A stretch of 64,000 nt of DNA from Pedobacter sp. AJM (lineage in GTDB: Bacteria > Bacteroidota > Bacteroidia > Sphingobacteriales > Sphingobacteriaceae). The stretch spans positions 248,001 through 312,000 of the forward strand of contig NZ_NHOT01000001.1 of assembly GCF_002197755.1 (NCBI RefSeq), read 5' to 3'. Under the pieces are notes generated by a model that worked only from the letters and a program-made list of their open reading frames with translations, made no database searches and was not told where the DNA came from. Positions 7,962-46,839 of this stretch are shown in pieces (position 1 is the stretch's first letter; the number at the start of each line of letters is the position of its first letter). Position numbers and translations under genes: made by a program.

Positions 7962-8498
7962 TGAAGGTTTGGTTTGAATGTTTAAATATCAAACTTAAGA
8001 AGCGTTAATCAAAAATCGCTGTAGAAATGTTACCAAATCGTATGTTCTCCTGAACTTGATCCGAGATTTTTTCGAATCGTGCAGTTTTTTCCAATGCGGT
8101 GGCTGGCCTCGGCTGGCCGCCGAAGGGCTTTCTTCTTTTCTTAACAAGAGCAAGCAAAAGTCAAGGCTTGTAACTGATGTCGGATAAATTCGTTAAAGCT
8201 TTATTTCGGCAGCACAAGCACCCGATGAAAAATCTGGTGCTTGTGCTGCCTTGGGTGGTAGTGGTATGTAAAATTGTGGTGGAAGCTTTAATCGTTTTCT
8301 CCAATCCATCATTTCCTAGGCCGGGTAGCAGGGATGGCGATAGCGAAGCGCAAAGTTAAATTTGTAAGCTTCCTTTCAATTTTAAGCTGCTTTTTATATT
8401 GATATGAACAAGGGATTAATGCGGTCGTCTTCCTGAACTTGATACAGCAATCTTTTTATCGAAGCCTACCAACTGTCAATGAAGAACGATCAACAATC
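7962..8498. other. 536-bp spacer with a perfect 15-bp hairpin and interspersed-repeat debris
   Basis: No supportable gene. It holds a perfect inverted repeat at 8208-8250, two related segments starting CTGAACTTGAT (near 8051 and 8435) about 385 bp apart, a GCCGAAGGGCTTTC stretch near 8121 and a CCGGGTAGCAGGGATGGCGA stretch near 8321. The latter two resemble repeats common in this family. The arrangement suggests remnants of one or more small non-autonomous elements. Confidence 0.45.
8208..8250. repeat. Perfect 15-bp inverted repeat with 13-base loop
   Basis: GGCAGCACAAGCACC at 8208-8222 is the exact reverse complement of GGTGCTTGTGCTGCC at 8236-8250. No T run follows on either side, so it is not an ordinary terminator. 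Confidence 0.8.
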
Positions 8499-9866
8499 TT
8501 ACACCGATCTGTTCTCTTCAACACCCAACTTCACTGTCAAAACATCATCTGTTTTTTTCGGTTCTCTGATGAAGACATAACAAATCACTGCAGCTAAAAT
8601 CATCAGGCCACCACCCAATTGAACCGCCAAAAGGCGATCATTATTTAATACGTTTCGCATTAACCAGCCGAAACCCAGCGAAGCGATAATCTCTGGTAAC
8701 ACGATAAAGAAGTTAAAAATGCCCATGTAGATCCCGATTTTATCTTTTGGTAAAGAACCACTCAGCATGGCATAAGGCATGGAAAGAATACTGGCCCATG
8801 CAATGCCAACACCCGTCATACATAGATACAGCATGTTTTTGTCATGTACCCAAGCTACACTGATCAGTCCGATGGCACCACAGATTAGACAAATGGCATG
8901 GGTTGTTTTTCTTCCTAAAGCATCAGCAATTTTGGGCAACACCAATGCAAAAAGAAACGTAATGACACTATAATAAGCCAAAGTCAAACTCCCAAAATCG
9001 GCGCCTTGTGCATAAACCGGATCGGCAGCATCTTTGCCACCAAATACATTTACCGCAACCGCAGTAGTGTAATAAAACCACATCAGGAATAACCCCGGCC
9101 AGGTGAAAAACTGCACCAATGAAACAATCTGCATGCGCTTCGGCATATTTTTCAATGCACTGAAAATTTCATTCACACCGTTCCTGAAACCTCTGCTTTC
9201 TTTTTCCGGAAGTTCGTTTTCTTGTGGCGGATACTCTTTCGTGGTAAAGACCGTCCACAATACGGCTGCGAAAAAGAAAAAAGCACCGATGTAAAACGAA
9301 AACTTCACATTTTCAGGAATGATTCCCTTTGCAGCTGTGTTTTGCAAATGAAAGACGTTGTTCATTAACCAGGGTAACGCTGAAGCCACACTTCCACCCA
9401 AACCGATCATCATGCTTTGCATAATAAAACCCCGGTTCACCTGACTATCAGGCAATTTATCGGTAACAAAAGCACGGAAAGGCTCCATCGCTATGTTTCC
9501 GAAAACATCTAAAACCCAAAGCAAACCTGCTGCCATCCACAGCACACTGCTGTGTGGCATCACGATCAGTGCCAGACTACTCACAATTGCCCCGATCATA
9601 AAATAGGGTCTTCTTCTTCCCCATTTCGGGTGCCAGGTTCTATCGCTCAGGTAACCAATAATCGGTTGAACCAACAACCCGGTTAATGGTGCGGCTAGAA
9701 ACAATAAGGGAACCTGATCTGGATTGGCTCCCAGATTTTCATAAATACGTCCCATGTTGGCACGTTGTAAATCCCAGCCAAACTGGATTCCGAAAAATCC
9801 AACACTCATGTTAATGATCTGAACCAGTGTTAATTTCGGGTTCTCGAAAACTGTTTTTAAGCTCAT
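8499..9866 (-). CDS. SLC45-type MFS sugar transporter (maltose/maltodextrin uptake)
   Basis: The 455-residue protein has about 12 hydrophobic segments. It carries the FGWDLQRANMGRIYENLGA N-terminal signature (residues 29-47) and an extended loop GYLSDRTWHPKWGRRRPYF (71-89), both typical of the SLC45/GPH-like branch of the major facilitator superfamily that moves sucrose or maltose with protons. It is the last gene of a minus-strand starch locus, downstream of GH13, GH65 and pgmB genes. I infer that it carries maltose or short maltodextrins across the inner membrane to the cytoplasmic maltose phosphorylase. The substrate is inferred from context only. Confidence 0.88.
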   Translation of the reverse strand: MSLKTVFENPKLTLVQIINMSVGFFGIQFGWDLQRANMGRIYENLGANPDQVPLLFLAAPLTGLLVQPIIGYLSDRTWHPKWGRRRPYFMIGAIVSSLALIVMPHSSVLWMAAGLLWVLDVFGNIAMEPFRAFVTDKLPDSQVNRGFIMQSMMIGLGGSVASALPWLMNNVFHLQNTAAKGIIPENVKFSFYIGAFFFFAAVLWTVFTTKEYPPQENELPEKESRGFRNGVNEIFSALKNMPKRMQIVSLVQFFTWPGLFLMWFYYTTAVAVNVFGGKDAADPVYAQGADFGSLTLAYYSVITFLFALVLPKIADALGRKTTHAICLICGAIGLISVAWVHDKNMLYLCMTGVGIAWASILSMPYAMLSGSLPKDKIGIYMGIFNFFIVLPEIIASLGFGWLMRNVLNNDRLLAVQLGGGLMILAAVICYVFIREPKKTDDVLTVKLGVEENRSV

Positions 9867-9880
9867 TATTTTTCGTTATT

Positions 9881-10076
9881 TTACCACAGAGGGCACAGCG
9901 TTTTTCACGGAGGACACAAAGTTTCTATTTGCTAACTGTTCATTTCCTCTGTAAGCTCATTGTTATTTGGTTCTGTTTTTTACCACATAGCACACCGATT
10001 TTTTACACAAAAGACGTTGACATTTTAAAACTTCTCTGCTTGCTCTGTGCTTTTTCTTTGTGTACTCTGTGGTTAA
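9881..10076. repeat. Intergenic ACCACAGAG/CACAAAG-type inverted repeats
   Basis: TTACCACAGAGGGCACAGCG with GGACACAAAG (9881-9921), a degenerate direct copy near 9978-10014, and an inverted copy with CTTTGTGTACTCTGTGGTTAA (10056-10076). They fill the spacer between the GH13 and transporter genes and can fold into a long imperfect stem. Repeats of this wording are, from memory, interspersed in Sphingobacteriaceae genomes. Confidence 0.5.
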
Positions 10077-10082
10077 TACTTT

Positions 10083-11825
10083 TTAAAATTCAATCACCTG
10101 CGCGGATACCGGCCCAAGTTTAACAGGAATACTTGTTCCTGCCGGAATATTTAGCCTGCTGTTTGTTAATAAATCAGTAACCGGCGAAGAACTTTTTACT
10201 TTCAGAATTTGATCCGGTATTTCAATAGTTGCTTCTAAAGTTTGGTCCCTGTCGAAATTCGCAACCACTAGTAAACGTTGCTTGCCCGAGTAGCGAATAA
10301 AAGCATACATGCGGTTATTCATGTTTCCGTTTTGTGGAACATCATAAATTTCACCATGTAAAACGGCATCACTGGTTGTGGTTACTTTTAATAACTGCTG
10401 ATAATAAGTCCTTAACGCCTGCTGATCTCCATTTAAACCGTATCCGTCGAATAAGCCGCCGTTCATCCATTGCTGATGATAGGGTACGCCCCAATAATCA
10501 AAAATCGTGGTGCGGTTATCATCGCCACCAAAACCTTCTGCACCTTTACCGGGCTCGCCTACTTCTTGTCCGAAGTATAACATTACGGGGCCTTGGCCCA
10601 AGGTTGCCGAAACCACCATTGCAGGTAAAGCCAGTTCGGCCTTCCCTGCAAATCCTGCAGAAGCAATTCTTTCCTCATCATGGTTTTCTAAAAAGCGCAA
10701 CATGTGTTCGCCAAAACCAGCACTTTCTGCCTGCCATACGTGACGAATATCCTTAACATCTGCATTGGGTTCGTTTTTGATTAACCGCTTTAAGCCGTCG
10801 TATAATCCAACTTTATCGTATAAGTAATCGAATTTACCCTCTTCAAGATACTGTTTGTAAACCTGCGGATTGTAAGCTTCACCCAGAAAAATCAGATCCG
10901 GATTTATCTTTTTTACCTGAGGGATTACCCAGCTCCAGAAAGCGATCGGTACCATTTCGGCCATATCGCATCGAAAACCATCTACCCCTTTTTTGGTCCA
11001 GAAGATTAAGATATCACGCATTTTGGTCCATACCGGAGGAATGGGATCAAAATACTGTTTCTCTCCATGCTGATAGTCTACCCCATAATTGAGTTTAATG
11101 GTTTCATACCAGTCATCATATTTAGGCACAGCTGAAAACACATTGTTTCCGGTGGCTTTAGCCGGATTTTCCTCAAACTTTCCATCCTGCAGCGCAGAAA
11201 GAGGCGTTTTTTCTCCGTTGGTGGGTACCACGAATGGCTGACCCGGAACATAGTAAAAATCATTTTTCGGACTGAAACTTTTGCTCGGATCATCCTGCGC
11301 ACCAAAATCAATCACATTTTTTGGCCTGGCGTATGAATGATAACTTCTGGCGACATGGTTAGGAACGAAATCGATAATGGCTTTTAGATTTCTGGCATGT
11401 GTTCTTTTGATCAACGCTTCGAACTCCTGCATCCGGTTTTTAACATCAACGGCTAAATCAGGATTCACGTCGTAATAATCGCGGATGGCATAGGGCGAAC
11501 CTGCCCGGCCTTTTACCACATCGGCATCATCGACCTTAATCCCATAGGCAGCATAATCGGTTAAACTGGCGTGGGCGATGGCTCCGGTGTACCAAATGTA
11601 GTTTACATGAAGTTCCTTAATTCCGTCTAAAGCCTTATCAGTAATGTCGTTAAACTTACCAGAACCATTTTGTTCAATGGTGCCGTAAGGGATATTTCTG
11701 GTGTTTTTATTTCCAAATAACCGAGGCAATAACTGATAGATCACGATTTGTCGATCGTTCATTTTTTTACTCCTTTTTTGTGCAAATGATGATGAAGAGA
11801 GCAGCATTAAGATCAAGATAAGCAT
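10083..11825 (-). CDS. GH13 alpha-amylase-family glycoside hydrolase, exported
   Basis: From the start at 11825 the protein has 580 residues with a short signal peptide MLILILMLLSSSSFAQ. An in-frame ATG at 11948 would add 41 residues encoded by a GTTTAAGG-like intergenic repeat, and would hide the signal peptide, so I prefer 11825. GH13 regions: FVPNH (about residues 153-157), GVDGFRCDMAEM with nucleophile D287, FLGEAY with acid/base E316, and FLENHDEERI with D383. It hydrolyses alpha-1,4-glucan or maltodextrin, probably in the periplasm or on the outer membrane. It lies 119 bases downstream of the maltose phosphorylase gene in the starch operon. Confidence 0.9.
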   Translation of the reverse strand: MLILILMLLSSSSFAQKRSKKMNDRQIVIYQLLPRLFGNKNTRNIPYGTIEQNGSGKFNDITDKALDGIKELHVNYIWYTGAIAHASLTDYAAYGIKVDDADVVKGRAGSPYAIRDYYDVNPDLAVDVKNRMQEFEALIKRTHARNLKAIIDFVPNHVARSYHSYARPKNVIDFGAQDDPSKSFSPKNDFYYVPGQPFVVPTNGEKTPLSALQDGKFEENPAKATGNNVFSAVPKYDDWYETIKLNYGVDYQHGEKQYFDPIPPVWTKMRDILIFWTKKGVDGFRCDMAEMVPIAFWSWVIPQVKKINPDLIFLGEAYNPQVYKQYLEEGKFDYLYDKVGLYDGLKRLIKNEPNADVKDIRHVWQAESAGFGEHMLRFLENHDEERIASAGFAGKAELALPAMVVSATLGQGPVMLYFGQEVGEPGKGAEGFGGDDNRTTIFDYWGVPYHQQWMNGGLFDGYGLNGDQQALRTYYQQLLKVTTTSDAVLHGEIYDVPQNGNMNNRMYAFIRYSGKQRLLVVANFDRDQTLEATIEIPDQILKVKSSSPVTDLLTNSRLNIPAGTSIPVKLGPVSAQVIEF

Positions 11826-11944
11826 ATGATGACTTACTTTGCTTAATTGAAAAGGTGACAAACATGGTGCCGAAAGGCCTTTCTGATTTGCAAAAGTTAG
11901 CTTTTTTAACCCTCTACCTTCAACCTTTAAACCCTCATCTTTAC

Positions 11945-14263
11945 TCATACTAATTCAGTGTTTTTAACTTCGATTTCAGTGCTACCCGCTAACTTATACA
12001 ACTGGTTTTTGATATTAATTTCAAGTTCTACATCATTATTGTTTTTAATGGTGATGCCGTTTTCTGCGATCCTTATTTTAAGCGTTGCACCTCTGAAACC
12101 AATCGTAAACGAGAACGATTTCCATTGTGTTGGCAAAAACGGATTAAATTGTAGTTTTCCATTTCGAACCCGCATTCCGGCGAAACCTTCTACCACACTC
12201 ATCCAGGTTCCGGCCATTGAAGTGATGTGTAAACCATCTTCTGTATCGTTGTTGTAATCATCTAAATCTAACCGGGCAGTACGCAGATAAAATTCGTAAG
12301 CACGTGCTTCGTCGTTTAGTTTCGCGGCCAAAATACTGTGTACGCAAGGCGACAAGGAACTTTCGTGAACGGTACGTGGCTCATAGAAATCGAAGTTTCT
12401 TCTGATGGTTTCCAGATCATAATCTTCTTCAAAGAAATAGATACCTTGTAAAACATCCGCTTGCTTAATGAACGGTGAGCGCAAAATCCTATCCCAACTC
12501 CATTTCTGGTTGATTGGTCTATCACTCGCCGGCAGATCTTTTACCAATGTTTGCTCCTTATCCAGATAACCATCCTGCTGTAAGAAAATTCCTTTTTCCT
12601 GATCTTCCGGATAGTACATCTTTTCGATAATATCTGCCCAATCGGTAAATTCCTCATCTCTGAAATTTACGCTTTCCAGCAAATTCACATATTTTTGTGG
12701 CTGCTGTGTTTTTACAATTTCTGCTGCTTCGGTGGCATATTTCATGCACCAGGTAGCGAGTAAATTGGTGTACCAGTTATTGTTTACGTTGTTTTCGTAC
12801 TCATTCGGACCTGTAACCCCGAGCATTACGTATTGCTGTTTTTCGCTGCTCCAGTTTACACGTTGTTTCCAGAAACGGGCAATGCCAATGAGTACTTCCA
12901 AGCCGAAGTCAGAAAGATAACTTTCATCGCCTGTATAGCGGATGTAGTTATAAATAGCGAAGGCAATCGCACCATTGCGGTGAATTTCCTCGAAGGTTAT
13001 TTCCCATTCGTTATGGCATTCCTCGCCATTCATGGTCACCATGGGATATAACGCTGCGCCATCCTTAAAGCCTAATTTTGCAGCATTTTCGATCGCCTTA
13101 CCTAATTGTTTATGGCGATAAACCAATAAGTTTTTGCTTACTTCCTGTGGTGCAGTGGCCAGATAAAATGGTACGCAATAAGCTTCAGTATCCCAATAAG
13201 TAGAGCCGCCGTATTTTTCGCCGGTAAAACCTTTCGGACCAATATTCAGACGATCATCTTTACCTGTATAAGTTTGAAACAACTGGAAAATATTGAACCT
13301 GATGGCTTGCTGTGCAGATACATCTCCTTCAATAATGATATCACTCTCTTCCCATTTGGTTGCCCAGGCTGCTTTTTGTTCTGACAATAACGTATCAAAA
13401 CCTTTAGCCGTTGCTTTCGCAATTACTGCCTTTGTTTCTTTTAAAAGCGATTCTTTTGGATAGTTTTCGGAAGATAAATTAGCCGCAATTTTGATCAGTG
13501 TAACCTCTTCGTTTGCCTTTATATCCAACGTTACAGTTTGTCCGACGAATTTTTCCCGGCGAACTTCCTCCAACTGAACATCAAGCTGTTCCCCATTTTT
13601 GTAGAGTTTGATGTTAGTACCTGTGCAAACTTCAAAAGCTGTTTTTTTCGTTCTCAGTTTGAGGTAAGCTTCTGTTCCTGAAAATTCATCCGCAACAAGA
13701 TCCCAGAATTTTTCATCATAATTGCTATCCTGGTTTTTAACATCACCATCAATAAAAGGCATTAAGGTTAGTTTTCCATCAAAATCTATTGGCGTAATGG
13801 AATAACGAATGGCGCCAACTTCATCATCAGCGATGCTACAAAAACGGGTTGCTTTTACTTTTACAGTTTTACCACTTTTTAGCTTTGCGGTGAAAGTACG
13901 TTCTAAAACCCCGGAATGCATATCCAACACCCGCTTGAATTCGCTTACTTCGGCAGTTGCCAAATCTAAAACTTCATCATCCAGCTTGACTTCAATTCCT
14001 ACCCAGTTTGCAGCATTTAAAACTTTGGCAAAATATTCCGGATAGCCGTTTTTCCACCAGCCTACGCGGGTTTTATCAGGATAATAAACGCCTGCAACAT
14101 AATTACCTGATAAAGTTTCGCCGGTATAAGTTTCTTCAAAATTAGCCCGCTGACCCATCCGGCCGTTGCCTAAGCTGAAAATACTTTCTGAAATTTTATT
14201 TAAATGTGGATCAAAGCCTTCTTCGATAATGTTCCACTCATCTGCTTTAATGTAATTTTTCAT
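11945..14263 (-). CDS. GH65 maltose phosphorylase (kojibiose phosphorylase family)
   Basis: From the ATG at 14263 the protein has 772 residues, normal for GH65, and no signal peptide, so it is cytoplasmic. An earlier in-frame ATG at 14302 would add 13 residues encoded by repeat-like sequence. The family N-terminus NGRMGQRANFEE is present. The general acid is E488 in GVTGPNEYENNVNNN, matching the position reported for Lactobacillus brevis maltose phosphorylase (E487). WDTEAYCVPFY lines the active site. The reaction is maltose plus phosphate to glucose plus beta-glucose-1-phosphate. The adjacent pgmB gene, 70 bases upstream, supplies the next step, which strongly supports maltose over other GH65 substrates. 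Confidence 0.93.
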   Translation of the reverse strand: MKNYIKADEWNIIEEGFDPHLNKISESIFSLGNGRMGQRANFEETYTGETLSGNYVAGVYYPDKTRVGWWKNGYPEYFAKVLNAANWVGIEVKLDDEVLDLATAEVSEFKRVLDMHSGVLERTFTAKLKSGKTVKVKATRFCSIADDEVGAIRYSITPIDFDGKLTLMPFIDGDVKNQDSNYDEKFWDLVADEFSGTEAYLKLRTKKTAFEVCTGTNIKLYKNGEQLDVQLEEVRREKFVGQTVTLDIKANEEVTLIKIAANLSSENYPKESLLKETKAVIAKATAKGFDTLLSEQKAAWATKWEESDIIIEGDVSAQQAIRFNIFQLFQTYTGKDDRLNIGPKGFTGEKYGGSTYWDTEAYCVPFYLATAPQEVSKNLLVYRHKQLGKAIENAAKLGFKDGAALYPMVTMNGEECHNEWEITFEEIHRNGAIAFAIYNYIRYTGDESYLSDFGLEVLIGIARFWKQRVNWSSEKQQYVMLGVTGPNEYENNVNNNWYTNLLATWCMKYATEAAEIVKTQQPQKYVNLLESVNFRDEEFTDWADIIEKMYYPEDQEKGIFLQQDGYLDKEQTLVKDLPASDRPINQKWSWDRILRSPFIKQADVLQGIYFFEEDYDLETIRRNFDFYEPRTVHESSLSPCVHSILAAKLNDEARAYEFYLRTARLDLDDYNNDTEDGLHITSMAGTWMSVVEGFAGMRVRNGKLQFNPFLPTQWKSFSFTIGFRGATLKIRIAENGITIKNNNDVELEINIKNQLYKLAGSTEIEVKNTELV

Positions 14264-14333
14264 AATTGAGTATTGAGTAGCGGGATTGGAGATTGGAGAC
14301 AATGCCCTTCACCTTAAACCCTACACCTTAAAC

Positions 14334-15020
14334 CTATAAATTCTCTAAATCTTTAACTGTTAATTTGTCTAATCCGCTAACGACTACATCCGCATCGGTG
14401 AGTATGCTTTTTTCGCCGATACCAATGGCTCTCATGTCACCTCTTTTCGCTGCTTCCACACCAGCCACAGCATCTTCAAAAACGACACATTCATTAGGTT
14501 TGAAACCTAAAAGTTCTGCACCTTTCAAAAATACTTCCGGATCTGGCTTTGATTTAGTAACCATATTGCCATCTACAATTTCATCAAAGAAATGCGCAAG
14601 ATTGGTTTTCTCTAAAATAATCCCTGAGTTTTTGCTCGCCGAACCCAAAGCCAGTTTATAACCAGCCTGGTGAATTTCAGTCAAAAAATCTACCGTCCCG
14701 GGCAAAACCTCTGCAGGTGTCATTTTGGTGATCATTTCTACATACCAGCTATTTTTCAAAGTGGCGAGTTCTTCTTTTTCAGCATCCGTTTTTTCTACGC
14801 CGCCCCAGGCCAAAATTTTATTCAAACTTTCTACCCTGCTTACGCCTTTCAACTGTTCGTTTTGCGCTTCGGTAAAATCAAAACCAATGGTATTGGCGAG
14901 TCGTTTCCATGCCTGGTAATGGTAAACAGCGGTATCAACTAAAACGCCATCAAGATCAAAAAGGCAGGCTTTTATTTGGGTTTTGGGTTCGGGATTGGGG
15001 GTTTGGAGTTCTTCTTGCAT
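14334..15020 (-). CDS. pgmB: Beta-phosphoglucomutase (HAD superfamily)
   Basis: The 228-residue protein has the HAD motifs FDLDGVLVDT (residues 21-30; the two Asp are nucleophile and acid/base), GSASK (motif II), and KPDPEVF with VFEDAVAGVEAAKRG (motifs III and IV), as in beta-PGM. It converts beta-glucose-1-phosphate to glucose-6-phosphate, completing maltose phosphorolysis with the GH65 enzyme. The first 16 residues (rich in Pro, Gln and Thr) are encoded by a CCAAACCCCCAATCCCGAACC-like low-complexity stretch resembling the repeats at other junctions of this operon. No internal ATG precedes the HAD motif, so the ATG at 15020 is kept. Confidence 0.93.
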   Translation of the reverse strand: MQEELQTPNPEPKTQIKACLFDLDGVLVDTAVYHYQAWKRLANTIGFDFTEAQNEQLKGVSRVESLNKILAWGGVEKTDAEKEELATLKNSWYVEMITKMTPAEVLPGTVDFLTEIHQAGYKLALGSASKNSGIILEKTNLAHFFDEIVDGNMVTKSKPDPEVFLKGAELLGFKPNECVVFEDAVAGVEAAKRGDMRAIGIGEKSILTDADVVVSGLDKLTVKDLENL

Positions 15021-15138
15021 TGTTGGTTGTTATATCTTATGGCGTAGTAAGTATCTATTATCAAGGCAGGTGTGCTTACCTGGTTTTCCGCTTTGATCTT
15101 TGATCTTTCCGCCTTAGTATTTATTTTTTGCGTTTTAA

Positions 15139-17058
15139 TTAATTCAACTCCAAAACCAGCGTTGTCCTTGCTGGCACTTTAATTTCGTTGAATGAAATGG
15201 TTTTGTTGGTAATGATATTTTTCGCTGAGGTAGTTCCGAGGGTTCTTTCTGTGAAACGATCCGTTTTCAGTGTCTTTTCTTTTTCGGAATTATTTACAAC
15301 GACCATCACTGTTCCTTTAACGCTTTCATTGTAGCGGAAGTACACATAAATATCATCTTCCGGTACAAACTGCATCAATTTTCCACTTTGTAAAGGAACA
15401 CTGTTTTTTCGGTAATTTGCTAATGTCCGCACAAAATTGAATGCCTCATTTTCTTTGCTTGTTCTACCTTTGGCGATGAACTTATCTTTTTTGTCACCAT
15501 CCCATCCACCAGGGAAGTCGGCACGCACTAAACCATCAGGGTTGGAGAAATTTTTCATTAAAATTTCAGTTCCGTAATACATTTGCGGAATGCCACGCAT
15601 GGTGAGCAATAAGGCCATACCCATTTTATACTTTTCGAAATCTTCATTCACTACAGAATAAAAACGGCTCATGTCGTGGTTATCTAATGCGATGCAATTT
15701 TGAGTAGGATCTTTATATAAAAAATCATGTGCGATCACGTCGTACAAACGATTCACGCCATCAGTCCAGCCATTTTTTCCGTTTAGTGCTTCATAAATCC
15801 CTTCTTTTACAGCCATATCGGTAATTCCCGGAAGGTGTGTATTAAAGCCGCGATTTACAGTATTTCCTTCTGTAAAATAAGCCTGATTCGGCACGCCACT
15901 GACAAAGGTTTCTGCGAAGATAGAAAGGTTTGGAAACTCAGCTTTTATCTTCAATGCCCAATCTGCCATATAAGCCGGATCGTTGTAAGGATAAGTATCT
16001 AAACGTAAACCATCAATGCCTGCATATTCAATCCACCAGATGTGGTTTTGCGTCAGGTAATTTTGCACATAAGGGTTTTGCTGATCCAGATCTGGCATAG
16101 ACGGCACAAACCAGCCATCCAGCATTTTCTTGCGATCGGCTTGTGAGGCATGTGTATCCATAACCGCCTGATCGCGGTAACTGGTCTGTGTATATTTTGC
16201 CCACTGATGCACCCAGCTTTTCATCGGTAAATCTTTAAAAAACCAATGCCCCGTGCCAATGTGATTGTGCACAATATCTTTAATCACTTTCATGCCTTTT
16301 GCATGAGCAGTTTCTACATATTTCTTAAAAAGTTCGTTGCTGCCATAACGCGGATCAATTTTATAGTGATCGGTTACTGCATAACCATGATAGGAAGCTT
16401 TTTCCATATCATTTTCGATTTCCGGCGTCATCCAAACGGTGGTGATGCCTAAATCTTTCAGGTAATCGAGGTGATTCATTACCCCCTGAATATCGCCTCC
16501 GTGACGGAAATACATACTATCACGGTTTAATGCAGTTTCGGCTAAGCCTTTCACTACATCGTTACTTTTATCGCCGTTCGAAAAACGATCCGGCATCAAC
16601 AAGTAAATAAAATCTTTTTGTGTTACGCCCTGAATTCTGGTTGCGCTTTTATCGCGGTTCCTTAATTCGTAAGTGTAATTCAATATTTTTTTCCCGTTTA
16701 CAGTGAAGTGAATTGGAAATTTTCCCGCCCTGGTAGTTGGCGCGATGGTTAAATCTAAAAACAGGTAATTTGGGTTTTCTACTTTATTAACTTTTACCAG
16801 TTTTACACCCGGGTAAGTTAATGAAACGGTGCTTGCTGCGATGTTTTCGCCATGTACAATCAACTGCAATTCAGGATTGTGCATACCTGTAAACCAAAAC
16901 ATCGGCTCGATCCGTTCTAATTTCTGGGCGAATAAATGACTTGCCGAAAGTGAAATCAGCAAAGTCAGCAGCATTATTTTTTTTCCTGCAAATTGCAGAA
17001 AGTTTGTTTGAGCACTGGATAATAAAGGAAAGAGCGAAAAGTTTTTGGATCTGAACAT
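15139..17058 (-). CDS. GH13 neopullulanase/cyclomaltodextrinase-like enzyme with N-terminal domain (SusA-like)
   Basis: The protein has 639 residues from the ATG at 17058, or 611 from the ATG at 16974 whose product starts directly with the signal peptide MLLTLLISLSASHLFAQ. The second start fits export better, but I cannot decide. After the signal comes a beta-sandwich of about 95 residues (KLERIEPMFWFTGMHNPELQL) of the cyclomaltodextrinase N-terminal type, then the GH13 barrel: VHNHIG (263-268), GIDGLRLDTYPY with D354, FAETF with E383, LDNHD with D462 (long numbering). It cleaves maltodextrins, pullulan or cyclodextrins in the periplasm, the role of SusA in Bacteroides. It follows susE in the operon. 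Confidence 0.9.
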   Translation of the reverse strand: MFRSKNFSLFPLLSSAQTNFLQFAGKKIMLLTLLISLSASHLFAQKLERIEPMFWFTGMHNPELQLIVHGENIAASTVSLTYPGVKLVKVNKVENPNYLFLDLTIAPTTRAGKFPIHFTVNGKKILNYTYELRNRDKSATRIQGVTQKDFIYLLMPDRFSNGDKSNDVVKGLAETALNRDSMYFRHGGDIQGVMNHLDYLKDLGITTVWMTPEIENDMEKASYHGYAVTDHYKIDPRYGSNELFKKYVETAHAKGMKVIKDIVHNHIGTGHWFFKDLPMKSWVHQWAKYTQTSYRDQAVMDTHASQADRKKMLDGWFVPSMPDLDQQNPYVQNYLTQNHIWWIEYAGIDGLRLDTYPYNDPAYMADWALKIKAEFPNLSIFAETFVSGVPNQAYFTEGNTVNRGFNTHLPGITDMAVKEGIYEALNGKNGWTDGVNRLYDVIAHDFLYKDPTQNCIALDNHDMSRFYSVVNEDFEKYKMGMALLLTMRGIPQMYYGTEILMKNFSNPDGLVRADFPGGWDGDKKDKFIAKGRTSKENEAFNFVRTLANYRKNSVPLQSGKLMQFVPEDDIYVYFRYNESVKGTVMVVVNNSEKEKTLKTDRFTERTLGTTSAKNIITNKTISFNEIKVPARTTLVLELN

Positions 17059-39107: not shown

Positions 39108-39247
39108 TGCCCCATTTTAGGCGGAGCTTTTTATTCAGGTTCCGCCCCTAAAAAAATCTCAATTGATTGATGGTTCAGGTAAAATTATAATGGTTCTGAT
39201 GCTTATCGTAATCTTTTTTATGATTGGCACTTATTATGAAAATAAAA

Positions 39248-39281
39248 AACCCCCATCCTATTAGCTAGGATGGGGGTTTTT
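39248..39281. terminator. Bidirectional terminator between sulP-type gene and tRNA-Asn copies
   Basis: CCCCCATCCTA at 39250-39260 pairs exactly with TAGGATGGGGG at 39266-39276, with an A run before and a T run after. It can stop transcription from both sides. Imperfect copies of it accompany two of the intact tRNA-Asn genes (about 45042-45074 and 45478-45510). Confidence 0.85.
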
Positions 39282-39309
39282 ATGTGATTTTCAGGCTTGA
39301 AAATCTTTG

Positions 39310-39361
39310 CTCCCTCTGCTGGGCTCGAACCAGCGACCCTCTGATTAACAGTCAGATGCTC
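39310..39361 (-). pseudogene. Truncated tRNA-Asn (3' 52 bases only)
   Basis: Identical to the last 52 bases of the three intact tRNA-Asn genes at 45.1-45.8 kb: part of the D-stem, the anticodon arm with GTT, the variable loop, T arm and 3' acceptor strand. The 5' acceptor strand and most of the D arm are missing; identity stops after AGATGCTC on the plus strand. Similarity continues on the other side through the terminator (to about 39229) with a few mismatches. This is the left border of the island. Confidence 0.9.
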
Positions 39362-39706
39362 CTTATTCCTAATTACATCTTAATCAATCAATTACAAGCT
39401 AGCAAAGATATTCCGTTAAATATGTGTAACGGTTTTTAATTACCTGTAAATTTAAGAATTTCTTTTTAGAATTGTAACATCTATTCTATCTGGATCTCGG
39501 ACTCTTGATTAACATTCAAAAATTATTTTGTAAGATATTAGCTCCCTAAACTATTAAGAAGTGCGCCCTATGCAAGTACAAAGGCCTCGTACTACGCACT
39601 GTTATTTTCATCGCCGTCATGGGTTTTTACCACAGCTCTTATTTCTGGTTCGCCAACAAGATCTCCATCATCATTAACAAATTAAATTAAAACACGCTCC
39701 TGGTGA
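39362..39706 (+). other. Left end of island: unassigned sequence with a possible gene remnant
   Basis: 39362-39545 is AT rich with nothing recognised. From 39550 the composition rises in GC, and the plus strand is open to a TAA at 39688-39690 with a plausible membrane peptide (GLVLRTVIFIAVMGFYHS, then WFANKISIIINKLN). After that stop the same frame continues to 39759 (LVIKLVFWRTLKGNKCWYF). No start codon in good context is visible. I read it as a fragment of an unrelated element joined here; no family recognised. Confidence 0.3.
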
Positions 39707-40477
39707 TTAAACTGGTCTTTTGGCGCACCCTGAAAGGGAATAAGTGCTGGTACTTTTGATACTGACAGTGGCGCCACTAGGCGTTAAACATGAAACGATA
39801 TCTTGATAGCTGGCTCCATTTTGGGATATTTTAATTGTGTTTTCAGTAAATGCCGTTTTTTTTATTGCGCTGAGTGCATAACCAACAGAGGATTTGTTTG
39901 ACTTTGCCTCTGTATAAATATACTTTTCACCTGCTTCATATAGAGATGTATTGGTATAGAAAATCATTTTTTTTCTTATATCTTGAAATTTCCATATTCC
40001 ACTTACAAAATCGTTTATGAAATCCATGCTAAACCGGTTAATTTGCCTTGGAATTGCATCAGTGAAATCCATTATCGTGCTTTTTTCGGAGATAGTGGAA
40101 TAACTACACGCTGCAAACAAGCCATAAGGAGTACTTCGCGTACACATTCTTGAATAATATTTATGTAGAGTCAACATAAGCTTATCCGTTTTTTTCTTGT
40201 CTAGTTCTTTCCCCTCCAACCAGCTTAACATAAGCCCATAAACCTCTTCTGAGGCAAAAAAAAGTGCCTTAACGAATTCTCTGTTAGAAAAATGTTCTTT
40301 TAACATCTCCCTTGCTATAGTCTGATCCTCCATCTTTTCATACATGGATAAATCGTTATTCAACTTAATAGCACGTTCTATAGGAAAAGTTGGGGTTCTT
40401 ACAATACAAAAGTCATAAAGGAAGTGCCCGCTAGGGTTTTTATCTAATTGTTTTGAAGGGTTCAATATATTTTTCAT
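39707..40477 (-). pseudogene. Lantibiotic dehydratase (LanB), N-terminal fragment
   Basis: The 256-residue frame starts at 40477, 18 bases after the receptor gene. About 230 residues are clearly LanB N-terminal domain: FLYDFCIVRTPTFPIE, the signature MCTRSTPYGLFAACS (about residues 111-125), INRFSMDF, and a later NGASYQDIVSCL. The last 20-25 residues (from SGATVSIKS on) do not look like LanB and coincide with a change in composition. Intact LanB proteins carry roughly 700-1000 residues (glutamylation plus elimination domains), so this is truncated and probably inactive. It would have dehydrated Ser/Thr of the precursor encoded upstream in the same operon. Confidence 0.85.
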
Positions 40478-40495: not shown

Positions 40496-42925
40496 TTAAT
40501 TAGCTCTTCTTGATTCATCATTGTTTACCTCTTTTATTTGCCTATTAGTTTTTGCAACTTTACCGAAACTATAATTTAATGAAAAGCGTAGAGATTGACT
40601 GTCGAAGTAATTATTATAACTAGTTTGAATATTGTTTGTCACAGAACTGAATCGCACTTTAGATGTCTTCAGAATATCAACAGCATTGACAGCGAGCGCT
40701 AGATTTTTTTTGTTAAGTAAAACCTTAATACCAGCATCTAAAGAATAGTACGCTTCGAATTTTGAAATTCCAGATACCATAGGAAACGTATAACTAAAGT
40801 CTGCATTAGCTGTAATTGTTCGTGCCTTATTCAATTTGAAAGTATTGTTTGAAGATAAATCACCGCCGAAACCGCTCTGACCTGACGCATAATCAATATT
40901 CGATTTTGTAGAAATATAATTGATAGATGCAGAATTGTAGCTTTCAAGCCACTTCAAATCACTAAAGATATAATTCTGGCTAATACCATAGTTTCTTTGG
41001 GAATAGTAATTAAGCCTTGTTAATTTGGATATTTTGGTGGAATTATCATTAATCACAATCTGATCAAAAATATTATTGAGCAAATAGACATTTGCTTTTG
41101 TTATTAGTTTGTTTTTATGATTAAATGTAAGCTGAAAGATGTTGTTAAACGATGGCCTCAAAAATGGATTACCCTCATAATAAAAATAAGGGCTTACAAA
41201 TTGTTTAAATGGGTTTAGATACCAATAACTTGGCCTATTGATACGCTTGCCGTATGATAGAACAAATGAGTTATTTTGATCTTTCTGGTACATCAAATAT
41301 GCTGTTGGGAAGATTTTAAGATAGTTGACCTTTGTAGTTTGTTGAGCGGTAATTGATTCACCAGTAGTCAAGGTATTCTCTGCTCTAAGGCCTAGCTGAA
41401 GACTGAATCGCCCAAGTTCCTTTGAACCACTGATATAGAGAGCTTGTATATTTTCGCTGTAATTAAAGGCATTATTGAGTAAAGTGTTTTCGAATGTGAT
41501 TGTATTTACATTATAATAATAGTTTGATGAGGCCGCTGTTTTGATAAAAGACAATTTTCCACCAAAATTAAAATCCATAATTTTATTCGGAAAGGATATA
41601 TCAGATTGTATGGTATAAGTATTTACATTTTGTGGAGCGTAGCTGGAAGTATTGCTAACGTTTGATATTATTCCATCTACAAGAGATTCATTGACAGATT
41701 GTTGGGCCGTTGTACTGTTAAAGGTAAAATAAGCGCCATCTATAGAGAATTTTTTGCCCAATGTATCCAAGAGATATTCATAATGAAGATTGATGTTATT
41801 ACTATTCGAGGTTTTTGATAAACCATTTCGAGCATTGATAACAGAATCAATCAAGTTTGGATTCGAAGCAGGAAATATGTTTGTGGTAGATTCCTCTTCT
41901 GCCGGAATAGATCTAGCCCCATAAGAATAAATTAGTCCAATGGCCTGCCTTTTAGTAATTCGGTAGTCCAACGACAATCTGCCAAGGAAACTTTCGCTGG
42001 TGTTTTTTGACTCTCTGCGCTGATCCCAGGTTTGAGAAGGATAAAATATACTTGGACGGGTACTCTCTTGAAAAATGTTATTACTAATGTTGAAGCTTGA
42101 ATTTACACTTAGTTTTCCAGAGTTTACATTTAATAGTAAGCCCGAATTGCCAGATAAGTAGGTTGCTTTAGATAGTGCGCCAGAAAAACTACCATTGAAA
42201 CCATGCTGTCTCTTTTTCTTCGTTACAATGTTAATTAGACCAAAATTCCCTGCAGCATCATATTTAGCAGGTGGATTCGTAATTACTTCGATTTTGGAAA
42301 CCTCATTAGAAGACATAGATCGTAAATAATTCGCCAAATCATCACCAGACATCTGTATCAGTCGATCATCAATCATTACGTTTACCTGTCCTTTTCCAAC
42401 TAGTGATACGCCATTTGATTGATTTACTCGAACGCCTGGAATTTTAGACAGGGCTTCCAATACAGTAGAGCCCGTCATTGAAACACTATTTTCAACATTA
42501 AATACTAACCGGTCTGTTTTCTGCTCTAAAATTGGTCGGTTACCTTCAACCGTAACATCCTTTAATGAAACGGTCATAGGTATAAGTACAATGGCTGATA
42601 GAGTAGTATCCTTAGTTGAAAGCTTTAACTCTAACTTTCCATCTTCGAACATTTGGTGACTCACGCGTATTCTGTAACTCCCCGTATCCTTAACAGAAAA
42701 GTTAAATTTTCCTTTATCTGATGATAATGTTTGTGTTATCTTTTCTGCAGACCGAGCATTAATGATATAAATTGTTGCATCTGCTATTGGCTGATTCCTA
42801 CCATCGGAAACACTCCCCAAAATATTATGTTGCGCTCTTACAGTAGAGCTTGAAAGGAAAAAAATAAAAAAAAATGCCTCGGCTATAAAAATCTTTAAAA
42901 TGAAATGTCTTTTCCAGTTGATCAT
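40496..42925 (-). CDS. TonB-dependent receptor / outer membrane beta-barrel protein of the lanthipeptide operon
   Basis: The 809-residue protein has a signal peptide (to about residue 32, ending VRAQ), a carboxypeptidase-regulatory-like domain (NILGSVSDGRNQPIADATIYI), a plug-like region with VTVEGNRPILEQKTDRLVFNVENS, VLEALSKIPGVRVNQSNGVS and IEVITNPPAKYDAAGNFGLINIVTKKK, then a barrel of the OMP_b-brl_3 type ending in SLRFSLNYSFGK. It lies between the precursor gene (68 bases upstream) and the LanB fragment (18 bases downstream). Receptors of this kind are often found in Bacteroidota peptide clusters, where they may carry the product across the outer membrane. The frame is intact. Confidence 0.85.
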   Translation of the reverse strand: MINWKRHFILKIFIAEAFFFIFFLSSSTVRAQHNILGSVSDGRNQPIADATIYIINARSAEKITQTLSSDKGKFNFSVKDTGSYRIRVSHQMFEDGKLELKLSTKDTTLSAIVLIPMTVSLKDVTVEGNRPILEQKTDRLVFNVENSVSMTGSTVLEALSKIPGVRVNQSNGVSLVGKGQVNVMIDDRLIQMSGDDLANYLRSMSSNEVSKIEVITNPPAKYDAAGNFGLINIVTKKKRQHGFNGSFSGALSKATYLSGNSGLLLNVNSGKLSVNSSFNISNNIFQESTRPSIFYPSQTWDQRRESKNTSESFLGRLSLDYRITKRQAIGLIYSYGARSIPAEEESTTNIFPASNPNLIDSVINARNGLSKTSNSNNINLHYEYLLDTLGKKFSIDGAYFTFNSTTAQQSVNESLVDGIISNVSNTSSYAPQNVNTYTIQSDISFPNKIMDFNFGGKLSFIKTAASSNYYYNVNTITFENTLLNNAFNYSENIQALYISGSKELGRFSLQLGLRAENTLTTGESITAQQTTKVNYLKIFPTAYLMYQKDQNNSFVLSYGKRINRPSYWYLNPFKQFVSPYFYYEGNPFLRPSFNNIFQLTFNHKNKLITKANVYLLNNIFDQIVINDNSTKISKLTRLNYYSQRNYGISQNYIFSDLKWLESYNSASINYISTKSNIDYASGQSGFGGDLSSNNTFKLNKARTITANADFSYTFPMVSGISKFEAYYSLDAGIKVLLNKKNLALAVNAVDILKTSKVRFSSVTNNIQTSYNNYFDSQSLRFSLNYSFGKVAKTNRQIKEVNNDESRRAN

Positions 42926-42993: not shown

Positions 42994-43206
42994 CTATGCT
43001 ATCGCAGTACAAGTGCTAGAACCCGTGCCGCATCCGGTCGAAGTAGCATCATTCTCCTTACCACAGGTACTACCACCTGATCCACAGCCTGTAGATGTTG
43101 CATCATAATCCACTCCACCACCAAGGATGTCATTTAATTGTTTTTCGTCAAGTCTGGCAATTGTTTCTTTGTCCAACACCAATGGGCTTAATTCCATTTT
43201 TTTCAT
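42994..43206 (-). CDS. Class I lanthipeptide precursor (LanA-like), double-glycine leader, twin-repeat core
   Basis: The 70-residue peptide has a leader of 30 residues (KETIARLDEKQLNDILGG), the pattern of Bacteroidota natural-product precursors, with a likely cleavage after G29-G30. The core holds two 14-residue repeats, DATSTGCGSGGSTC (35-48) and DATSTGCGTGSSTC (53-66), separated by GKEN. Four Cys and many Ser/Thr allow up to four (methyl)lanthionine rings, two per repeat. The receptor and LanB fragment lie downstream on the same strand. Known Bacteroidota lanthipeptides include the pinensins of Chitinophaga; this core differs from what I recall of them. An internal ATG at residue 4 is an alternative start. 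Confidence 0.85.
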   Translation of the reverse strand: MKKMELSPLVLDKETIARLDEKQLNDILGGGVDYDATSTGCGSGGSTCGKENDATSTGCGTGSSTCTAIA

Positions 43207-44026
43207 GGTTCTTATATTTTTTGATGTTTATCTCTACTCTTTTGGGAATTTTCGAGTTACTCCCATCGTCGCGCAACAATATCTATGATGTCTTTATAAT
43301 GTCATTGATTCTATTTAGTCCAACAAACATTTCTAACTATTCATTTTGGATTTTTAATTCCCCTTTGCCATCAACCAAAACCATTACTTCATCATTACCA
43401 TTAAGTTGTAACTATTATTTTAAAAACAAAGGATAAGGAAGTATAGCTTTCATAACCTATTAGACTTGTAAATATTTTAAATTTACCGTTTAATTTATCC
43501 TATAGACATTTTCCTTAAGTATCAGATAAGCCAGCTCAGTGTGTCTCACCTCGCATATTAATTAAGGAAATTTTAGCAAATGCAACTGGCCTATCGTATT
43601 CTTTACTAATTAGTTTAAGATTTAAACGTAGGCTTTGTTGTCCATAAACTGTCAATCCACTAAAATAGATTAAACCAGCTAGCAGCAAACTTTTTAAGCA
43701 CCTTTGCAATATGTTTCTTTATAAGCCAAATGAAATCATTAATAACTGAATAAATATTTGATTAACTTAAATTGGGTAACATGATTCTTTTTAAAAACTT
43801 TAACACTTTGCAATTTCATACATCAATAAATTAATTATCTGAAAATTAAACTCTTATAACTAAATTAGTATTGACAGAGGCTTACGATGAAAGTATAATT
43901 AATATAAATTCATTGTATTAATTTATTTACTAATTTATTTACTAATTCGAAATAATTAATTATAATTAATAGTTATTTATCAATTTTTAAACTTTTTTAT
44001 ATAAAAGATATATTTTTCTATATACA
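43207..44026. other. AT-rich island spacer
   Basis: About 820 bp upstream of the lanthipeptide precursor. Composition is strongly AT rich, especially after 43800. Apparent open frames are short and lack recognisable features. No exact TAnnTTTG element was found for the precursor operon. Confidence 0.4.
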
Positions 44027-44423: not shown

Positions 44424-44837
44424 ATGTTTAGATGCATTATAATCGATGACGACCGCCATGCCATATTGAGCCTAGAAAAATATATCGATTCGTTTCCCGG
44501 ACTTGAGCTGGTTGAAAGTTATATAGACCCATTAAAGGCACTTACATCTATAGCTAAAGCCGAACCCGTAGACACCTTATTCTTCTTGACATTGATATGC
44601 CCAAGATTAATGGTATAGAGCTTTCTAAAGCAATTAGAAACAAGACAGATAAATTAGTTATTCACTACTGGACATATTAAGTATGGTTATGATGCTTTTA
44701 AGGTGTACGCAGATGATTATTTACTGAAACCTTTTACACTCGGGGAGTTTATGATATCAATGAGCAAAATATTCCCTGAGCAGAATGATGTGAAAAAAGA
44801 TGAATTCTTTTTATCATTTTTTAAATGGTGCACGTAA
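44424..44837 (+). pseudogene. Frameshifted response regulator receiver (LytTR-type, output domain lost)
   Basis: The first frame (44424-44618) encodes MFRCIIIDDDRHAILSLEKY and continues to DTLF. A shift near 44583 restores LDIDMPKINGIELSKAIRNK, including the phospho-acceptor Asp. A second shift near 44664 restores TTGHIKYGYDAFKVYADDYL and LKPFTLGEF. Together these are a complete receiver with the switch Thr and conserved Lys. The sequence stops at 44837 without a LytTR domain. LytTR systems are common partners of Bacteroidota peptide clusters, so it probably regulated the lanthipeptide operon once. Confidence 0.8.
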
Positions 44838-44907: not shown

Positions 44908-45174
44908 AACGGGATTTTTCTTGTTAAATATTTGTAGAATATTTTCGTCAAGTTCAGCAATTTTTGCTGTTGAACTCGATGGAAAATGGCGATTGAAAAA
45001 TTTTCTGGAGGTAGGATACTTCCTATTATGAAAATAAAAAACCCCATCCTATTAGCTAGAAATGGGGTTTTTATGTGATTTTCAGACTTAAAAATCTTTG
45101 CTCCCTCTGCTGGGCTCGAACCAGCGACCCTCTGATTAACAGTCAGATGCTCTAACCAGCTGAGCTAAGAAGGA
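44908..45174. repeat. Border repeat R, copy 1 (267 bp, includes tRNA-Asn)
   Basis: Identical, as far as I can check by eye, to 45344-45610 (offset 436). Contents: a 110-bp stretch with a GTTCAGCA/TGCTGTTGAAC hairpin, an imperfect terminator, and a complete tRNA-Asn. The terminator-to-tRNA part also matches the left border at 39229-39361. Confidence 0.85.
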
Positions 45175-45339
45175 GTGCTGGTTGTTTCCCAAATCGAGGT
45201 TATTAAGGCTTTTCAGCCTGCATACCCTTGTTCGTTTTGGGAATGCAATATTAGGGCTTTTAAATTATTTATGCAATATTTGCAGTGAAAAATTTTTAAA
45301 AAAATTCAAATAAAAATATATGAGCCTGATAATCATAGG
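45097..45339. repeat. Border repeat S, copy 1 (243 bp: tRNA-Asn, spacer, first bases of pfkB-type gene)
   Basis: Identical by eye to 45696-45938 (offset 599). It runs from the tRNA-Asn through the GCTGGTTGTTTCCCAAATCG spacer and ends with ATGAGCCTGATAATCATAGG, the first 20 bases of the pfkB-type gene, after which sequence switches to border repeat R copy 2. It is a duplication with a junction inside the kinase gene's 5' end. Confidence 0.9.
45101..45174 (-). tRNA. tRNA-Asn(GTT), copy 1
   Basis: On the minus strand the 74-base sequence starts TCCTTCTTAGCTCAGCTGGT and folds as a cloverleaf: acceptor TCCTTCT/AGAGGGA, D-stem GCTC/GAGC, anticodon stem TCTGA/TCAGA with loop CTGTTAA (anticodon GTT), T-stem GCTGG/CCAGC with TTCGAGC. 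The discriminator is G and CCA is not encoded. The anticodon decodes AAC/AAU (Asn). A terminator hairpin follows it on the minus strand. Confidence 0.97.
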
Positions 45340-45343
45340 AAAA

Positions 45344-45610
45344 AACGGGATTTTTCTTGTTAAATATTTGTAGAATATTTTCGTCAAGTTCAGCAATTTT
45401 TGCTGTTGAACTCGATGGAAAATGGCGATTGAAAAATTTTCTGGAGGTAGGATACTTCCTATTATGAAAATAAAAAACCCCATCCTATTAGCTAGAAATG
45501 GGGTTTTTATGTGATTTTCAGACTTAAAAATCTTTGCTCCCTCTGCTGGGCTCGAACCAGCGACCCTCTGATTAACAGTCAGATGCTCTAACCAGCTGAG
45601 CTAAGAAGGA
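45344..45610. repeat. Border repeat R, copy 2
   Basis: Second copy of 44908-45174, 436 bp away, with the same hairpins, terminator and tRNA-Asn. It starts four bases after the truncated kinase-gene copy. Confidence 0.85.
45537..45610 (-). tRNA. tRNA-Asn(GTT), copy 2
   Basis: Same 74-base sequence and fold as copy 1. It has its own imperfect terminator at about 45478-45510. The upstream flank (plus-strand 45611 onward, ATATTTATTCTGG) differs from that of copies 1 and 3. Confidence 0.97.
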
Positions 45611-45667
45611 ATATTTATTCTGGTTGGTACTGTATGTTTTGCTAAAATCATTTAGCAAGTTTGTCAT

Positions 45668-45697
45668 AAAAAATCCCCACATTACTGTGAGGATTTT
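45668..45697 (-). terminator. Terminator of tRNA-Asn copy 3
   Basis: Read on the minus strand, AAAATCCTCAC and GTGGGGATTTTTT form a hairpin directly after the tRNA 3' end. Its sequence differs from the terminator of copies 1 and 2, suggesting that copy 3 is ancestrally distinct. Confidence 0.75.
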
Positions 45698-45699
45698 TG

Positions 45700-45773
45700 C
45701 TCCCTCTGCTGGGCTCGAACCAGCGACCCTCTGATTAACAGTCAGATGCTCTAACCAGCTGAGCTAAGAAGGA
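45700..45773 (-). tRNA. tRNA-Asn(GTT), copy 3
   Basis: Same 74-base sequence and fold as copies 1 and 2. Its 5' flank (plus-strand side) is the spacer leading to the pfkB-type gene. Confidence 0.97.
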
Positions 45774-45918
45774 GTGCTGGTTGTTTCCCAAATCGAGGTT
45801 ATTAAGGCTTTTCAGCCTGCATACCCTTGTTCGTTTTGGGAATGCAATATTAGGGCTTTTAAATTATTTATGCAATATTTGCAGTGAAAAATTTTTAAAA
45901 AAATTCAAATAAAAATAT

Positions 45919-46839
45919 ATGAGCCTGATAATCATAGGTACTGTAGCGTTCGATGCTATTGAAACGCCATTCGGAAAAACAGATAAAATTGTTGGTGGCG
46001 CTGCAACTTACGCCAGTTTAGCTGCATCTTACTTCTATAATCAAGCAAAAATTGTCGCTGTTGTAGGTGATGACTTCGGAAAAGAAAATATTGAGATCCT
46101 TACGCAGCATGGCATAGATACGGAAGGCTTACAAATTAAAACCGGCGAAAAATCGTTCTTTTGGAGTGGAAAATATCATAACGATATGAACAGTCGCGAC
46201 ACCTTAATAACCGAACTTAATGTTTTGGAACATTTCGACCCTATTATTCCGGAAAGCTACCAGAACTGCGAATTTTTAATGTTAGGCAACCTGACGCCAC
46301 AAGTACAGCAAACCGTGATTAAACGCCTTAAAAACCGCCCTAAACTCATTGTAATGGACACCATGAACTTTTGGATGGACATTATGATGGATGACCTGCT
46401 GGAGACCATTAAAATGGTGGATGTTTTAACCATTAATGATGCAGAGGCACGTCAGCTTTCCGGCGAATATTCACTGGTTAAAGCCGCTAAAAAAATCCTG
46501 ACCATGGGGCCAAAATATTTAATCATCAAAAAAGGTGAGCATGGTGCATTGTTATTTCATGAAAATCAGATTTTCTCAGCACCGGCATTACCTTTGGCAG
46601 AAGTTTTCGATCCGACTGGCGCAGGCGATACTTTCGCAGGCGGATTTATTGGTTACCTGGCTAAAGTGGGTACCATTAATTTTAACAACATGAAAAATGC
46701 CATTATTTATGGATCAGCACTTGCTTCATTCTGTGTAGAAAAATTTGGAACGGAAAGGTTATTAAATTTAACAGATCAAGAGGTTGCAGATAGAATCCAG
46801 GAGTTTGTTAACCTGAGTGCTTTCACTATCGAAGCTTAA
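45919..46839 (+). CDS. PfkB family carbohydrate kinase
   Basis: The 306-residue protein has the ribokinase fold. GGAATYAS (residues 27-34) is near the N-terminus, a sugar-binding region follows, and the C-terminal signature DPTGAGDTFAGGF starts at residue 231 with catalytic base D237. It phosphorylates a sugar or nucleoside with ATP; the substrate cannot be told from sequence. The first 20 bases of the gene are duplicated 599 bp upstream together with a tRNA-Asn, so the 5' region has been rearranged while the frame stays intact. Confidence 0.92.
   Translation: MSLIIIGTVAFDAIETPFGKTDKIVGGAATYASLAASYFYNQAKIVAVVGDDFGKENIEILTQHGIDTEGLQIKTGEKSFFWSGKYHNDMNSRDTLITELNVLEHFDPIIPESYQNCEFLMLGNLTPQVQQTVIKRLKNRPKLIVMDTMNFWMDIMMDDLLETIKMVDVLTINDAEARQLSGEYSLVKAAKKILTMGPKYLIIKKGEHGALLFHENQIFSAPALPLAEVFDPTGAGDTFAGGFIGYLAKVGTINFNNMKNAIIYGSALASFCVEKFGTERLLNLTDQEVADRIQEFVNLSAFTIEA

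Follow-up and report, generated by a model that had tools for sequence, protein, structure and literature searches.

A Probable Remnant of a Class I Lanthipeptide Cluster With a Two-Unit Core in Pedobacter sp. AJM

The window analyzed here, a stretch of 64,000 nucleotides from Pedobacter sp. AJM, very probably contains what is left of a class I lanthipeptide cluster with the GG-leader type found in Bacteroidota. Its precursor has a core of two similar units, and the cluster most likely no longer yields a modified product. The class of peptide is known, the core is distinctive and the window copy is decayed. The features of the locus are collected in Table 1.

TABLE 1. Features of the lanthipeptide locus (positions in the window).
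Feature	Position	Strand	Basis and remarks
Left boundary: duplicated 3' part of tRNA-Asn and terminator	39240..39361	-	122-nt direct repeat, 93% identical to 45031-45152
Truncated LanB	39707..40477	-	PF04738 profile positions 2-177/649; homology ends near 39785, final residues unrelated
Intact outer-membrane beta-barrel protein (OMP), TonB-receptor-like	40496..42925	-	PF14905 (OMP_b-brl_3), E 1.1e-81; usual cluster member
Lanthipeptide precursor	42994..43206	-	Leader residues 1-30 ending in GG, then two-unit core; NF038153 match and homologues beside intact LanB/LanC
Core unit 2, DATSTGCGTGSSTC	43009..43050	-	Residues 53-66; translation and unit comparison
Core unit 1, DATSTGCGSGGSTC	43063..43104	-	Residues 35-48; translation and unit comparison
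DUF805b-like RNA element (RF02914), presumed 5' UTR	43231..43265	-	22.2 bits, E 0.0087; 24 nt before start codon
16-nt dyad ATTGTTGCGCGACGAT	43265..43280	-	Just upstream of DUF805b-like element; alignment, conserved in three relatives
Pseudogene of divergent LytTR response regulator	44424..44837	+	Three-frame translation; receiver domain, two frameshifts, DNA-binding domain lost
Right boundary: three tRNA-Asn genes in array	45100..45773	-	ARAGORN

The Precursor and Its Two-Unit Core

The precursor is encoded by an intact open reading frame (ORF) of 70 amino acids with an ATG start, and its translation, which agrees with that of an earlier sequence-only reading, runs in the order ...LDEKQLNDILGG GVDY DATSTGCGSGGSTC GKEN DATSTGCGTGSSTC TAIA. 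The tandem 14-residue Cys/Ser/Thr repeat noted in that reading was confirmed: the two units are identical at 12 of 14 positions, a value reached in none of 20,000 shuffles of the core, among which the best ungapped self-match was 9. At the DNA level, the units have 29 of 42 bases in common, and nine of the 12 identical residues are encoded by different synonymous codons. With a pS of 0.88 and a pN of 0.10 between the units, their likeness is therefore old and maintained by selection on the protein. Synonymous sites are saturated, which rules out that the repeat arose by slippage or through a recent duplication.

Residues 1-30 match the NCBIfam model NF038153 (lant_leader_L1a) with 41.1 bits at a cut-off of 22, the single such leader above cut-off in this genome. 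This leader and the neighboring LanB fragment are the grounds on which the peptide had been assigned to class I, and relatives in which both LanB and LanC are intact support its identity as a class I lanthipeptide whose core is duplicated. A weak match of the precursor to TIGR04149, a radical SAM RiPP leader (18.0 bits, below the cut-off of 25), might instead point to a radical-SAM-modified RiPP, or the product might be an unmodified Cys-rich peptide. Such a reading is highly improbable and the radical SAM RiPP was rejected, given this sub-cut-off score against 41 bits for the lanthipeptide leader, the LanB and LanC genes of the intact relatives, and the lack of any recognized radical SAM domain among the cluster proteins of two relatives (G129 and G426, below) that were scanned with Pfam.

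Relatives With the Doubled Core

A search of the genus found a related precursor in 16 of 145 genomes. The closest, with 53 and 51% identity over 67 residues, belong to an uncultured Pedobacter (G129, contig NZ_CAJYOJ010000022.1) and to Pedobacter sp. ISL-64 (G106, contig NZ_JAGGPU010000010.1), and a profile built from three precursors recovered further examples of this type in G426 and G418, which belong to a different genus within the family. The core units read AATSGDCSTGSSDC/GGTSGDCSTGNTKC in G129, AATSGVCTGGSTDC/GGTSGDCTSGPTTC in G106, and QATSGDCNLGSSSC/TGNSGSCNTGSSQC in G426. When these were compared with the two units of the window, Ser4, Cys7, Gly10, Ser/Thr12, and Cys14 proved invariant in all eight units from the four genomes, and Thr3 was changed in only one. 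The conservation of core Cys and Ser/Thr expected from the sequence-only reading is thus present in both units.

A class-wide sample of 395 genomes contained no further two-unit member, its one extra match (L183) having a different core, and plasmid records held no relative of the G129 precursor. In precursors at a greater distance, the core is shorter or otherwise different, with four Cys in G264, three in a Cytophagales MAG, and two in a Sphingobacterium MAG. As judged from these comparisons, the doubling of the core defines a small subfamily of predicted lanthipeptides.

Intact Clusters and the Proposed Maturation

In G129, G106, and G426, the precursor adjoins genes for a full-length LanB, a LanC-like protein and a C39 ABC transporter; both dehydratase domains of LanB (Lant_dehydr_N and Lant_dehydr_C) were confirmed in G129 and G426. 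The G129 cluster comprises a divergent LytTR regulator with a histidine kinase, the OMP, the precursor, a LanB of 1078 amino acids with both domains, LanC, two accessory genes X and Y (359 and 469 amino acids), and the C39-peptidase ABC transporter. An additional downstream protein with a weak biotin/lipoyl-like match is probably a membrane-fusion partner. The G106 cluster repeats this arrangement, while the order in G426 is precursor, OMP, LanB, LanC, X, Y, and transporter, which is also the order in the window (precursor, OMP, LanB) up to the break. When the LanB fragment of the window was used as the query against the genome contigs in the search for intact LanBs, no matches were obtained, and an alignment of intact LanBs used as the query found four loci.

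By analogy with the family, the leader would recruit LanB in the intact relatives, and LanB would dehydrate Ser and Thr residues of the core. LanC would then close thioether rings, and the conservation of the units suggests, as the simplest pattern, Ser4-Cys7 and Ser/Thr12 (or Ser/Thr8-9)-Cys14 in each unit. Ser4 is the one donor ahead of Cys7 that every unit has, and of the Ser/Thr positions that separate Cys7 from Cys14, position 12 alone is invariant, so i,i+3 and i,i+2 rings would be expected. Because i,i+2 rings are unusual, Ser/Thr8-9 are considered as alternative donors for Cys14. The C39-peptidase ABC transporter would finally cut after GG and export a peptide with two similar lobes.

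Decay of the Window Cluster

The presence of LanB sequence near the precursor, on which the earlier class assignment had partly relied, was borne out, but the broken state of the cluster had been missed. What remains of LanB is an N-terminal fragment (PF04738, E 1.3e-28) with 41% identity to residues 15-227 of the G129 protein, its homology ending after about 231 residues, at a point that corresponds to residue 227 of 1078 in G129. LanC, the accessory genes X and Y, and the transporter are absent from the window locus. The divergent regulator is preserved as a pseudogene with 36% identity over 134 of the 245 amino acids of its G129 counterpart, and the remnant ends ahead of the LytTR domain. 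With LanC, the accessory genes and the transporter lost entirely, and LanB for the most part, the strain most likely makes no modified product from this cluster.

Two further observations were made in the same region. An ORF of 57 amino acids at 43536-43709(-) has a signal peptide and begins with a weak resemblance to carboxypeptidase-regulatory-like domains, after which stops intervene. It may be what is left of the N-terminal part of a further outer-membrane protein, its Pfam match being not significant. Next to the truncated LanB, a frame near 39590-39700(+) resembles a transposase tail by eye; it has no Pfam match and no second copy in the genome, and a transposon is not claimed as the cause of the truncation.

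Elsewhere, the genome encodes LanB systems on two contigs, C8 and C11, and its sole LanC lies on C11. The C11 locus (L041; G000:C11:2000-21900), at 8659-16682, is a second lanthipeptide-type locus with a LanB split into 904 and 293 amino acids, a LanC of 631 amino acids with an additional C-terminal part, and a C39 ABC transporter. Its enzymes adjoin a candidate precursor of 63 amino acids (L041:8659-8850) with the C-terminal sequence HHTPPVRCTTVIC. The C8 locus (L040; G000:C8:83000-102900), at 9362-14434, carries a solitary LanB of 932 amino acids that has no adjacent LanC; genes for a histidine kinase and a LytTR-type regulator are convergent with it.

These systems raise the question of whether the window precursor still receives its modifications in trans, from the complete LanB, LanC, and C39 set of C11 or from the LanB of C8, so that the two-unit lanthipeptide is still made. 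In favor of such a scenario, the precursor ORF, its start codon, the upstream RNA element, and the OMP gene are all intact. It is nevertheless unlikely, as the C11 and C8 enzymes come from other lineages (the LanB fragment matches the other LanBs of the genome weakly, with 27% identity over 153 and 20% over 82 amino acids), the C11 set has a candidate precursor of its own with a different leader, and the window cluster retains its regulator only as a pseudogene. The remnant without a modified product is therefore the preferred reading.

The Outer-Membrane Protein

Between the precursor and the LanB fragment lies the OMP gene, whose product of 809 amino acids shows 32% identity to the G129 copy over 784 aligned positions; an OMP was found in most of the intact LanB loci examined. 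It is conceivable that, as the biosynthetic genes decay, the remnant has been retained since the OMP is useful alone, for example as a receptor, as an importer or by protecting the cell from the lanthipeptide that relatives make. This proposal, which is compatible with the locus being a cluster remnant, can be held only tentatively. In its favor, all 809 codons are preserved next to a LanB that is broken and a regulator with two frameshifts. The regulator makes up about one-tenth of the remaining coding sequence, and for it to receive both frameshifts has P ~0.01 under uniform decay. A second case is provided by G418, in which the precursor is damaged and the OMP next to it, with 70% identity to the G426 protein, is intact. 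In this independently decayed copy (L080; G418:C7), at 7395-10080, the precursor lacks the ATG start and one Cys, and no LanB was found near it. Against the proposal, there are only these two cases, the decay may be recent, the codon-position GC contrast is weak, and close homologues for dN/dS are lacking. Taken together, the two loci hint at an independent use for the OMP.

Insertion at a tRNA-Asn Array

The locus is flanked by tRNA-Asn sequences, and the repeat at its left boundary includes an exact copy of the 24-nt tRNA 3' end. In five relatives, tRNA-Asn lies beside the same PfkB gene and the cluster is absent; PfkB served as the synteny anchor, SulP having been discarded owing to its paralogues. 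The flanking repeats and the empty site in these relatives suggest that the cluster arrived as an insertion in the tRNA-Asn array, the mode of insertion being read solely from the repeats. The GC content of the island is low (25-36%), and no recombinase or integrase gene was seen within it. Within the array itself (44908-45938), stretches of 267 and 246 nt are duplicated exactly in tandem, and one of the copies spans the start of the following PfkB gene.

A DUF805b-Like Element Upstream of the Precursor

A block of about 50 nt ahead of the precursor start is conserved and matches DUF805b in Rfam; the dyad just upstream of the element is possibly an operator or an RNA hairpin. DUF805b is known as a candidate cis-regulator. 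Relatives carry matches to it at the same place before the precursor, with 34-47 bits. Relative to the Rfam gathering score of 35.6 bits for RF02914, the elements of the window, G129 (34.0), and G106 (34.1) score below, and those of G426 (40.9), G264 (38.9), and G387 (47.2 and 36.5) above; the Sphingobacterium MAG is among the genomes with a match above this score.

Three loop bases before GAAAA can pair with three bases after AGAGTA in 32 of 34 elements from nine genomes, with exchanges among G-C, C-G, and A-U, and this covariation supports a predicted pseudoknot in DUF805b. The window element keeps the 3-bp pairing as CUC/GAG. By free energy alone, the stability of the 5' leader was not significant (z -0.8 to -1.6).

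Elements of this family precede not only lanthipeptide precursors but many other small peptide genes in the family (L172, L173, L178, L181, L142-L171), with five matches in the genome of the window and up to 18 elsewhere. Examples are two loci (L172, G043:C1:5809500-5817500; L173, G017:C10:157500-165000) with tandem arrays of peptides of 76-92 amino acids, e.g., MARAWYSYDGVGS...C...CAIYA, in which every peptide has a DUF805b element to itself. DUF805b may be a common regulator of small exported peptides.

Comparison With Known Systems

SapB and the labyrinthopeptins of class III have two-unit cores and a two-lobed product, a precedent that the sequence-only reading had missed. They resemble the present core in having two similar ring units and differ from it in their LanKC enzymes, where the present subfamily has separate LanB and LanC proteins, in their occurrence in Actinobacteria, and in leader and ring chemistry. 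Text searches, which stopped short of the full text of the most relevant Pedobacter papers, returned no description of the present core.

Within Bacteroidota, the pinensins of Chitinophaga pinensis are likewise class I lanthipeptides, with a split LanB and a different leader type; the C11 locus, with its LanB in two genes, looks closer to these. PedA15 of Pedobacter lusitanus is reportedly a characterized class I member of the GG-leader group considered next, said to have been described by Bothwell in 2021.

Class I lanthipeptides with an LxLxKx5L...GG leader and a C39 transporter form a described and abundant Bacteroidota group, and nearly a quarter of class I LanCs come from this phylum (PMC7268733). 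The assumption in the sequence-only reading that Bacteroidota lanthipeptides are few was therefore wrong, as the number of Pedobacter genomes with a related precursor also indicates. Two such lanthipeptides have been produced in E. coli, and characterized members come from Chryseobacterium and Runella (PMC9993889). The present subfamily shares with this group the leader motif, the GG site, the two-domain LanB, the LanC-like cyclase, and the C39 ABC transporter, but its core consists of two copies of a 14-residue unit, and the window copy, unlike those systems, has no working enzymes. Several copies of one modifiable unit per core are also found in graspetides of the type of plesiocin, a repeat-core graspetide (PMC9576775); there, ATP-grasp enzymes form ester or amide rings, whereas thioethers are predicted here.

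Implications

A broader picture would combine a two-unit subfamily under selection, control by a DUF805b pseudoknot leader shared with other genes for small exported peptides, and an OMP kept as a receptor or for protection after loss of the enzymes; as a whole, this combination is doubtful. What the OMP does after loss of the peptide can be asked in the window and G418 loci, where the cluster has decayed, and the link of DUF805b to small peptide genes gives this RNA family a testable role. In the three intact relatives, it can readily be asked whether a single LanB/LanC pair forms identical rings in both units of one peptide, and efforts to design rings in modular form could naturally begin from the doubled unit.
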